64,000 bases of DNA from Nitrosophilus labii (GTDB taxonomy: Bacteria > Campylobacterota > Campylobacteria > Campylobacterales > Nitratiruptoraceae): positions 806,001-870,000 of the forward strand of contig NZ_AP022826.1 of NCBI RefSeq assembly GCF_014466985.1, written 5' to 3'. The stretch's first letter is position 1; each line of letters starts with the position of its first letter. The position numbers were made by a program, and so were the translations under genes. The notes under the pieces were generated by a model. The model was not told where the DNA came from and searched no databases. It worked only from the letters and a program-made list of their open reading frames with translations. This document shows, one piece after another, positions 17,850-20,677 of this stretch.

Positions 17850-18145
17850 TGCAATGAGTATGCTAGCTGAAAAAGAAGTTTAACCAAAAAGAGATCTATA
17901 AACTGCAATACGATAATAACGATTAGAGGTGCAAGATCGATACCCCCGATAACTGTAGGTATATATTTTCTTATAAAATAGTAAACTGGTTCGGTGAGTC
18001 TATAGAGTGTTTGAACTATAGGATTGTAAGGATCCGGTCGTACCCAGCTTATAAGCGCGGCTATAATAACAACCCATATATAGATATTGATTACCATATG
18101 TAAAATGTTAGCGACAGCTTCTAAAAGTGTGGAAATAACTATCAT
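17846..18145 (-). CDS. YggT family membrane protein
   Basis: A 99-residue protein with two YggT-type hydrophobic segments separated by SWVRPDPYNPIVQTLYRLTEPVYYFIR, the conserved family block. The biochemical role is unknown; relatives have been linked to osmotic protection and division. It overlaps both neighbours (gltX and slt) by four bases, implying translational coupling. Confidence 0.88.
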   Translation of the reverse strand: MIVISTLLEAVANILHMVINIYIWVVIIAALISWVRPDPYNPIVQTLYRLTEPVYYFIRKYIPTVIGGIDLAPLIVIIVLQFIDLFLVKLLFQLAYSLQ

Positions 18146-19440
18146 CTTACTACCTCATTTATGAATTTTCTTAAAATCGGATACAAAAGCGAAATTTCCG
18201 GTCCGTGCTCCTGGCCGGTTAAGAGTAGTCTTAATGGTTTGAAAAACTTTTTACCTTTCAATCCGCTTTCTTGCATCAACATTTTTTTGAACTCATCAAA
18301 CTTTTTTATATTACTATAATCTTTTATCAACTTTTTTAAAACTTCAACCTCTTTTTCATACTCGGATGGAATCTCTTTTTTAGAAAAAATCTTTTCTATC
18401 TTAGGCTTTAGCTCTTTTAAAGTACTTGCCTCTTCAATATATATTTTAGCAAGTTTTCCTATATTTTCATCATCATAACCCAAAAGTTTGGCTAAGATTT
18501 TATCATCTAATATTTTAATATGCGCTCTATTTATAAATCTTAGTTTATCTAAATCAAATTTGGCGCTGTTTTTTGATAGATTTTTAAGATCGAACCAATC
18601 TATAGCCTCTTGCATAGTAAATATCTCTTTTGGAGTTTTGTTACCCAGAAGTATGAGATAGTTTGCGATCGCTTGTGGCAAAAAACCTTCTTCCAAAAGC
18701 CATTTTACACTTGAGGCCTTATCCCGTTTGCTCATCTTTTTGCCCTCTTCATTTAAAATTATTGGAAGATGGCAATAATCTATATCTTTCGTGTATCCTA
18801 AAAGCTCTCTTATGTGTATCTGCTTTGGAGTATTTGATAGATGATCTTCTCCTCTTATGATTAAAGATACATCATGAAGCATATCATCTATCGAACATGC
18901 AAAATTGTAAGTCGGTCTTTCATCTGCTCTTAAAATAACAAAAGAGTCCACTTCATTTGGCTCAAAAGCCATTTTTCCTTTTAAAATATCATTAAACTCA
19001 ATCCTTTTTTGGGGTTTTTTGATTCTGACTACAAAAGGTTCTGCTTTTTTAGATGCTTCTTCAATAGTGATCTCTTCACATTTTCCGCTATATCTATAGG
19101 CAATTTTTGTTTTTTTTGCCTTTTCTCTCTCTTTTTCAAGTTCCTCTTTGGTACAAAAACATGCAAAGGCTTTTTTGTCCTGCAAAAGTTTATATGCAAA
19201 ATTTTGATGAAAGGTGATGTTTTTACTTTGATATAGAAGTTCGTCATACTCAATATCGAATTTTTTCAAGATTTCTAGTATCTCTTTATCTTTTCCATCT
19301 ATATTTCTTTCAATATCGGTATCTTCGATTCTAACCAAAAATCTCTCTTGTTTTTGTTTCGCAACTATATAGTTGAAAATAGCGACTCTTAAATTTCCTA
19401 TATGCATATCGCCTGTCGGGCTTGGAGCAAATCTAAGCAT
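18142..19440 (-). CDS. gltX: Glutamyl-tRNA synthetase
   Basis: A 432-residue class I synthetase. FAPSPTGDMHIGN at residues 4-16 holds the HIGH-equivalent motif (H13-I-G-N) and GKKMSKRDK near residue 235 the KMSKS-equivalent loop. Campylobacterota usually have two GltX paralogues, one specialised for tRNA-Gln; only one is in this window and its tRNA preference cannot be read from sequence. It is the first gene of gltX-yggT-slt. Confidence 0.92.
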   Translation of the reverse strand: MLRFAPSPTGDMHIGNLRVAIFNYIVAKQKQERFLVRIEDTDIERNIDGKDKEILEILKKFDIEYDELLYQSKNITFHQNFAYKLLQDKKAFACFCTKEELEKEREKAKKTKIAYRYSGKCEEITIEEASKKAEPFVVRIKKPQKRIEFNDILKGKMAFEPNEVDSFVILRADERPTYNFACSIDDMLHDVSLIIRGEDHLSNTPKQIHIRELLGYTKDIDYCHLPIILNEEGKKMSKRDKASSVKWLLEEGFLPQAIANYLILLGNKTPKEIFTMQEAIDWFDLKNLSKNSAKFDLDKLRFINRAHIKILDDKILAKLLGYDDENIGKLAKIYIEEASTLKELKPKIEKIFSKKEIPSEYEKEVEVLKKLIKDYSNIKKFDEFKKMLMQESGLKGKKFFKPLRLLLTGQEHGPEISLLYPILRKFINEVVR

Positions 19441-19484: not shown

Positions 19485-19782
19485 TAATTGAGTGTTCTGA
19501 ATAAATAGCAAATTTCGCTCAAGCAAGTTATCATTTTTGCTTTCGGCAACGCTTGAAAATTTTATTAAAAAGTGCGAACGGGAGGAGCGTTAAGCCAGCA
19601 CAAACTGCTTTGCGTTGGTAGCTCCGCACGGCGAGGCGTTTATGCAAACTTGCATAGCCTACGCCAGGGGAGCGCCCCTTCGGGGTTGAGCGCACTTTTT
19701 TGCTCTTATGACCAACATAAAATTTTCAAGCTAAAATGATAAAGCTTTCGCTTAATTTCTATTTATTCAGAGGGTTCAATTA
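19485..19782. repeat. Palindromic, GC-rich structured element (MITE-like or ncRNA)
   Basis: About 298 bp between divergent gltX and psd. Outer ends are inverted repeats: TAATTGA-N4-TCTGAATAAATAG at 19485-19508 and its complement at 19759-19782. Inner arms also match with indels (TTATCATTTT, GCTTGAAAATTTTAT, AAAAAGTGCG). The core (19572-19695) is GC-rich, unlike its surroundings, and folds into clear hairpins: CCAGCACAAA/TTTGCGTTGG (19595-19618), GGCGT..ATGCAA/TTGCAT..ACGCC (19635-19665) and AGGGG/CCCCT (19666-19679). No ORF is present. It could be a miniature transposable element or a structured RNA. Confidence 0.7.
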
Positions 19783-19852: not shown

Positions 19853-20677
19853 TTGAGAAGAGTAAGAAAAAGAGTAATAAGCAACATCATCTCAAAGAGT
19901 TTCGGAAAATTTGCTAGTCACAGATTTCATCCTGCTCTTCAAAAATTTATTAACAGATCGTATGTTAAATTTTTAAAATTGGATATGAAAGAGTTTAAAA
20001 AAGCTGAAGAGTATAAAACTCTTAATGAGCTTTTTACTAGAGAGCTTATTAACCAAAGAGACATAGATATAGATCAAAAATCGGTTGTATCTCCTACAGA
20101 TTCGCTTATAACAGAATGCGGAAAACTCCAAAAAGATAGACTTTTTCAGATAAAAGGTATGGAGTATTGTGTTGACTCTTTGTTATTGGAGTGTGACGAA
20201 AAGAGTAAAAAAAGAGTTTATAACGGTGAATTTATAAATTTTTATCTCTCTCCAAGAGATTATCATAGGTACCACATGCCTTATGATCTTCAGATAAAAA
20301 AAGTGATTCATATTCCAGGTAAGCTCTATCCGGTTAACCTTAGATATCTTAGAAAAAAGATAAATCTTTTCATAGAAAACGAAAGGGTTATTTTAGAGTG
20401 CTATACAAAAGATTCTAAATTGCTTTATATCGTTTTGGTAGGCGCTTTGAATGTAGGACAGATGACTTTGGTTTTTGAAAGTAGGATAGAGACAAACAAA
20501 AATAGAGAAATTTCTGTTTATGAGTATGAAAATCTTTGGATGAATAAAGGCGAACTTCTAGGATATTTCAAGATGGGTTCGACGGTAGTGATGCTTTTTG
20601 AAAAAGATAGTGTAAAATTAGAAATAGTTGCAGGCCAAAAAGTAAAGTTCGGCGATAAAGTGGCCGAATTTTACTAA
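19853..20677 (+). CDS. psd: Phosphatidylserine decarboxylase proenzyme
   Basis: A 274-residue pyruvoyl enzyme making phosphatidylethanolamine. The self-cleavage/pyruvoyl site is G242-S243-T244 in FKMGSTVVMLFEKD near the C-terminus; YLSPRDYHRYHMP and VGALNVGQM are the other family blocks. The start is TTG with a good Shine-Dalgarno (AAGGAGTGG); the first in-frame ATG would delete over 40 conserved residues, so TTG is chosen. Confidence 0.92.
   Translation: MRRVRKRVISNIISKSFGKFASHRFHPALQKFINRSYVKFLKLDMKEFKKAEEYKTLNELFTRELINQRDIDIDQKSVVSPTDSLITECGKLQKDRLFQIKGMEYCVDSLLLECDEKSKKRVYNGEFINFYLSPRDYHRYHMPYDLQIKKVIHIPGKLYPVNLRYLRKKINLFIENERVILECYTKDSKLLYIVLVGALNVGQMTLVFESRIETNKNREISVYEYENLWMNKGELLGYFKMGSTVVMLFEKDSVKLEIVAGQKVKFGDKVAEFY

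Follow-up and report, generated by a model that had tools for sequence, protein, structure and literature searches.

A probable IS5-type MITE carrying a REP-like, covarying two-hairpin module between gltX and psd of Nitrosophilus labii

The window, which is the whole stretch of 64,000 nucleotides that was analysed, comes from the 2.09-Mb genome of Nitrosophilus labii (G000; order Campylobacterales). It contains a repeat element in the gap between gltX (18142-19440, minus strand; PF00749) and psd (19853-20677, plus strand; PF02666), and the two genes diverge from this gap, as the initial annotation had described. The element is 288 bp long (19490-19777) and was recognised from its BLAST copies in the same genome and from empty sites in two related genomes (G002 and G003); its exact limits were set from the empty sites together with the direct repeats. 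The span first given for it, 19485 to 19782, does cover a real element but also takes in the AATT target duplications on its left (19486-19489) and right (19778-19781), both of which were assigned from the empty site at another copy and the same flank here. Within 19490-19777, every ORF is shorter than 80 aa.

The element begins with a 19-bp terminal inverted repeat, GAGTGTTCTGAATAAATAG (19490-19508, plus strand; consensus GARNNCTCTGAAAAA), and ends with its counterpart, which reads GAACCCTCTGAATAAATAG as the reverse complement (19759-19777, minus strand) and was assigned from the sequence and the arm alignment. Between them, all on the plus strand, lie a left inner arm, CTTGAAAATTTTAT (19552-19565), paired in the fold with a right inner arm, ATAAAATTTTCAAG (19717-19730), and a central hairpin whose 5' arm, AAAAAGTGCG (19567-19576), has its partner at 19691-19700. 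Across genomes, 98.4% of the cells of this 5' arm are paired and two of its pairs have changed on both sides. The 3' arm of the central hairpin, CGCACTTTTTT (19691-19701), was placed by the composite alignment described below and contains a T-run that may be terminator-like. A small hairpin, CCCCTTCGGGG (19675-19685), separates this arm from the core module, and nearly all aligned copies retain its three G-C pairs. The near-palindromic design with inverted ends, which had been noticed by eye, is far beyond chance: local alignment of the outer arms scores 32.5, compared with a mean of 10.6 and a maximum of 18.0 for composition-shuffled sequences, and the 288-nt fold of the plus strand has a predicted energy of -112 kcal/mol, whereas dinucleotide-shuffled sequences give -74 ± 5 (z = -7.3; z = -8.0 for the minus strand).

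A BLAST search of the same genome with a 298-bp query gave 42 matches, which amount to some 20 full copies, reported in forms of 188, 209, and 298 bp, plus a few fragments. Twelve of the full copies are about 188 to 191 bp long, six are of a 209-bp kind that has an extra CGCCCCTTCGGGG hairpin (one of the six is shorter at its ends), and two, the window copy and one at G000:C1:646906, carry the core. Two versions of the arms occur, AAAAATTAC and ATAAATAGC, each of them self-consistent. When the joined flanks of 18 copies were searched in G002 and G003, continuous element-free matches were found for four. The clearest of these, at a copy other than that in the window, reads CTAATTAATTATATTAATCC in G003, whereas G000 has CTAATTAATT, then the element, and then AATTATATTAATCC; at the edges of the element, the filled form is CTAATTAATT on the left and AATTATATT on the right. 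This comparison indicates that AATT was duplicated on insertion, and two further empty sites are compatible with such a duplication. At the window locus itself, five of six relatives (G001, G003, G004, G005, and G016) have no element in the gap between gltX and psd, and this gap is occupied in G002. A repeat on contig C80 of G002 was considered as a core-less orthologue and rejected, as it is a different, degraded repeat. The 288-bp element had no match in plasmid or phage collections.

Searching the same genome for the end pattern recovered the MITE copies along with two further elements that have GARNNCTCTGAAAAA ends. One (L069) is a degenerate 1.2-kb insertion sequence with both ends present and AATT on each side, and the other (L077) is a second degenerate insertion sequence in which the left end is recognised. 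Their broken frames match PF01609 (DDE_Tnp_1) above the cut-off. The IS5_4 model NF033581 matches a broken copy with an E value of 2.2e-32, and its score stays below the curated cut-off because the transposase copies are fragments. A third degenerate IS5_4 transposase fragment is found elsewhere in this genome (G000:C1:1557913-1558380). The MITE and the insertion sequences have only the terminal sequence in common. In the eight genomes tested, the cognate transposase was found in broken copies only and never intact; therefore, the mobility of the MITE is either past or dependent on another enzyme. The initial annotation had raised the possibility of a MITE, to be checked by looking for copies and empty sites in this genome and its relatives. 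The copy number, the terminal inverted repeats, the AATT duplication, the four empty sites, and the insertion sequences with the same ends together make identification of the outer 288 bp as an IS5-type MITE well supported.

The interior is of a different kind. The core module (19580-19667, plus strand) is an 88-nt repeat of two hairpins, recognised with a covariance model (R1) that was built from an alignment of 14 core copies. Hairpin 1 (19584-19625) consists of stems P1 (19584-19588/19621-19625) and P2 (19595-19604/19609-19618), a constant CTGC loop (19605-19608), and a constant asymmetric bulge, GTTAAG/TA; hairpin 2 (P3; 19630-19665) has a conserved bulged A at 19661. The stems vary almost freely with pairing kept, and both bulges are retained in nearly all copies. 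In the 14-copy alignment, 97.2% of cells are paired and 41 cells have changed on both sides, compared with 11.9 in shuffled alignments, and almost no double-sided changes are seen when the partner columns are slid. A covariance analysis of this sort had been proposed at the outset for the suspected structured core, which is thus borne out and proves to be a separate, order-wide repeat. The least biased test of covariation is provided by a pattern of constant bases, CGTTAAG-N8-AACTGCTT-N8-TAG, because selection by this pattern ignores pairing; in the copies that it selects, 96% of positions in the N8 stretches pair, compared with 62% after reshuffling (71 distinct stems). It had also been suggested that CCCC could pair with either of two GGGG runs to give alternative folds. 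Such pairings are literally possible in the window copy but are not conserved: the two alternatives pair in 47.5% and 70.5% of cells, which is no better than shuffles, whereas the main structure pairs in 96.9%.

The last figure refers to a composite frame of 41 pairs, in which the core and the small GC hairpin are enclosed by AAAAAGTGCGAAC and GCGCACTTTTTT. This frame was found in 13 sequences from 11 genomes, several of them of other families, and has 71 double-sided cells, compared with 25.7 in shuffled alignments; the small hairpin is missing in one of the 13 sequences. The terminal repeats outside the frame differ between genomes. Four loci (L095, L032, L038, and L043) have the MITE interior within other terminal inverted repeats, for instance GGAAAGWTTCTAAATT in L095. 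It looks as though transposons of several types had taken up a single payload. A second MITE-like frame, with GGCAGTCGCAAAC before the core and GTGCTCCTTTGTCGCC at its far end, occurs in other families of the order (L114, L115, L123, L223, and L271). Since the same frame is present in other genomes with differing outer terminal repeats, the core-bearing frame is probably older than the spread of the MITE family in the window genome. We also think that the core was more likely lost from the short MITE copies than acquired by the two that have it.

The core is not restricted to the MITE. Model R1 matches 112 of 299 genomes of Campylobacterales, belonging to 42 of 81 genera, with up to 14 copies in a genome. 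Six genomes (G005, G006, G008, G012, G027, and G003) contain the core outside the MITE, at sites that include the rRNA spacer of three operons, the neighbourhood of rho and of CRISPR repeats, and intergenic regions; cores outside the MITE also stand beside tRNAs. Copies at or inside CRISPR-like arrays (repeat containing CCCCTTCAGATCGGGTC and relatives) were seen at L080 (L054) and L101. A scan with the constant-base pattern of one genome per species across all prokaryotes found at least 120 stretches, nearly all in Campylobacterota (Helicobacter, Sulfurovum, Sulfurimonas, Sulfurospirillum, Arcobacter, and Hydrogenimonas) and three in Patescibacteria. Two viral contigs, IMGVR_UViG_2791355308_000003 (two copies) and IMGVR_UViG_3300036546_000386, hold genuine core hairpins, and the other exact-pattern matches in viral contigs are mostly without pairing.

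Core copies are concentrated at the ends of genes. The gene on the left (5') side of the core points at it in 73 of 95 copies, and divergent gaps account for only 5 of these 95, compared with 19% of gaps in general at the same loci. Copies that lie mostly inside ORFs number 22 of 213. Among 209 copies, from a search that itself demanded pairing, 48 have a same-strand stop codon near the start of P1; the stop codon abuts P1 exactly (position -3) in 20, and the TAA inside the GTTAAG bulge serves as the stop codon (position +7) in 13. The counts in shifted controls are 1 to 11. The stop codons of the same conserved genes are abutted in several genomes (L128, L135, and L204; L140, L241, and L266; L129, L136, and L280), and the C-terminal residues suggest that these genes are probably fabG, groEL, and a gene whose product ends in IPRxPGM. 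Overall, these results show that the core has a structure, that its dispersal is independent of the MITE, and that it is found preferentially at gene ends.

These positions invite the reading that the core is a functional cis-acting RNA, a hairpin of an intrinsic-terminator-like or processing kind at the 3' ends of transcripts, that most of its apparent mobility is due to horizontal transfer and recruitment, and that the MITE took it up as a terminator. The exact placement at stop codons, the cores that abut tRNA 3' ends in Patescibacteria, the conservation of unpaired bases, and the T5 or T6 runs at the 3' arm in 74 of the 209 copies are in line with it. However, 93 of the 209 copies have only T3, the presence of the core is patchy among the 299 genomes, cores form tandem arrays, and the window copy is near neutral in sequence. 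We regard this reading as a serious one that nevertheless probably does not hold as it stands.

Some cores are associated with tRNA genes. In several genomes, units made of a spacer plus a core have an intact tRNA gene on one side and, on the other, a 25- to 35-nt copy of the 3' end of that tRNA (L116, L117, L118, L144, L107, L125, L145, L104, and L037; tRNAs Asp, Thr, Pro, Lys, and Ala), and a second such unit follows the first at L117 and L118. The arrangement resembles what a very small element would leave by integrating site-specifically at the 3' ends of tRNAs. The hairpin is directly 3' of a tRNA in the three Patescibacteria from the pattern scan; in a 286-genome sample of one Patescibacteria class, four genomes match, three of which (G300, G401, and G465) have a tRNA at the hairpin edge. 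Five Patescibacteria loci (L246, L258, L287, L348, and L349), with about one copy per genome, have the hairpin abutting the 3' end of a tRNA (Ala, Glu, or Lys), and the tRNA genes of L348 and L349 are at the same place. GAAC or a similar sequence directly precedes many cores, in fragments of tRNA T-loops and in the loops of MITEs.

The core could accordingly be a mobile DNA hairpin that is recognised as a single-stranded fold by an HUH or tyrosine recombinase and prefers GAAC, hairpin loops, and the 3' ends of genes and tRNAs. REPs and attC sites are recognised in single-stranded folded form, and the variable stems, the constant unpaired bases, the GAAC junctions, and the tRNA-bounded units would all suit such an element. 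However, of the 20 core-bearing genomes tested, 10 have no Y1 transposase, and the window genome is one of these; within the window's family, most genomes that have a core are without one, and elsewhere none lies beside a core, except for one 19-bit match. Furthermore, no empty site was obtained for the core alone. We consider this reading possible but rather doubtful.

Covariation could also arise by template switching within palindromes (quasipalindrome correction) without selection on structure. The two self-consistent versions of the MITE arms and P2, which is an almost perfect palindrome, would be natural products of this process, but the process would erase the bulged A and the GTTAAG/TA bulge, both of which are kept, and the bases of the loop and flanks do not vary across an order, so that we think this explanation improbable. 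The idea that all 288 bp make up one non-coding RNA gene specific to this locus has the strong fold in its favour and is very improbable, given a dispersed multicopy family with target duplication in which most copies lack the core, and given the empty sites that contradict it.

The account that we prefer, with a probability of roughly 80%, is a nested composite in which an IS5-type MITE carries a member of a separate, REP-like, covarying core family. An IS5-type transposase, whose action is inferred, would have bound the GARNNCTCTGAAAAA termini, excised the MITE, and inserted it at AATT with a duplication of four bases. Insertion between gltX and psd would have taken place in an ancestor of the window genome and G002, which is its closest relative among those compared. 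The central hairpin, possibly terminator-like, carries the 88-nt core, a member of the family spread across Campylobacterales. One IS5-type transposase does not explain the occurrence of the interior within other terminal repeats, which counts against this account.

The core at the window locus is 95% identical to its G002 orthologue and the flanks are 96 to 98% identical. The window copy thus evolves about as fast as its flanks and has no sign of strong constraint. Since it lies in a divergent gap, a setting that cores otherwise avoid, and diverges as its flanks do, it is best read as cargo, and here it would be mainly a passenger multiplied by the MITE. For the family as a whole, the combination of constant unpaired bases and free stems points to recognition of a folded strand, as either RNA or single-stranded DNA. 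A role at transcript ends is favoured by the gene-end position of the cores, and a history of recombination by the units at tRNA 3' ends and the GAAC junctions; the two are not exclusive. The core is most likely a transcript 3'-end hairpin that may act in ending, processing, or protection, and this role may be combined with mobility through recognition of the folded form. It is conceivable, although we hold this to be somewhat unlikely, that the core is an undescribed structure-recognised mobile hairpin whose insertions target the 3' ends of genes and tRNAs and the inside of other palindromes, and that serves as a portable transcript-end element, carried by unrelated transposons, in Campylobacterota and a few Patescibacteria.

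The locus shows a repeat within a repeat: its covarying module of two hairpins is dispersed both alone and as MITE cargo. This explains a GC-rich patch that an annotator might otherwise take for a local non-coding RNA gene. If cores do act at stop codons and at the ends of tRNAs, a large bacterial order would have in them a portable 3'-end signal, and an enzyme that recognises folded DNA would be worth seeking.

Against Rfam, the window yields only tRNAs and the best match to the element has an E value of 4.5, with no curated threshold reached; a known RNA family was accordingly rejected for both core and element. The only literature found on such repeats in Campylobacterales is a survey of REPs (Di Nocera et al. 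2013; PMC3733652). It reports the REP superfamilies GTAG and CGTC, both for a Sulfurovum strain, and describes CGTC REPs as likewise without a RAYT gene. Like the REPs described there, the core is short, palindromic, and intergenic, lies mainly downstream of genes, is sometimes clustered, and in some cases is found within palindromes. Unlike them, it has no GTAG or CGTC foot (the commonest flanks among the 209 copies are AGGA, GTGA, ATGA, and GGGA), is a two-stem hairpin with a constant CTGC loop, an internal bulge, and a second hairpin, and has no adjoining RAYT. Mobilisation of the core by a RAYT was rejected, given the distribution of Y1 transposases reported above and the lack of flanking cores where one is present. 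We place the core among REPs in the broad sense; since both the tag test and the RAYT test failed, it falls outside the GTAG and CGTC superfamilies as described in the survey. The Sulfurovum families are excluded by the tag test alone.

Other known systems resemble parts of the composite. In integron attC sites, the stem sequence is free and the structure and extrahelical bases are constant. The core is similar in all of these respects; however, its aligned copies lack the RYYYAAC/GTTRRRY end boxes, and no cassette array was seen. The outer element resembles IS5-family MITEs in being short, non-coding, and intergenic, with terminal inverted repeats that match an insertion sequence, a short duplication, and tens of copies, but differs from them in that its central hairpin contains a structured module that is unrelated and order-wide, and in that the same interior is found within other terminal repeats in other genomes. 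The same comparison holds for further bacterial MITEs, for example the Correia/NEMIS elements. Pneumococcal BOX elements are intergenic repeats built of modules, the middle one being optional, and are structured as RNA. By description, the present element is likewise modular with a middle module, which in this case is also found alone.
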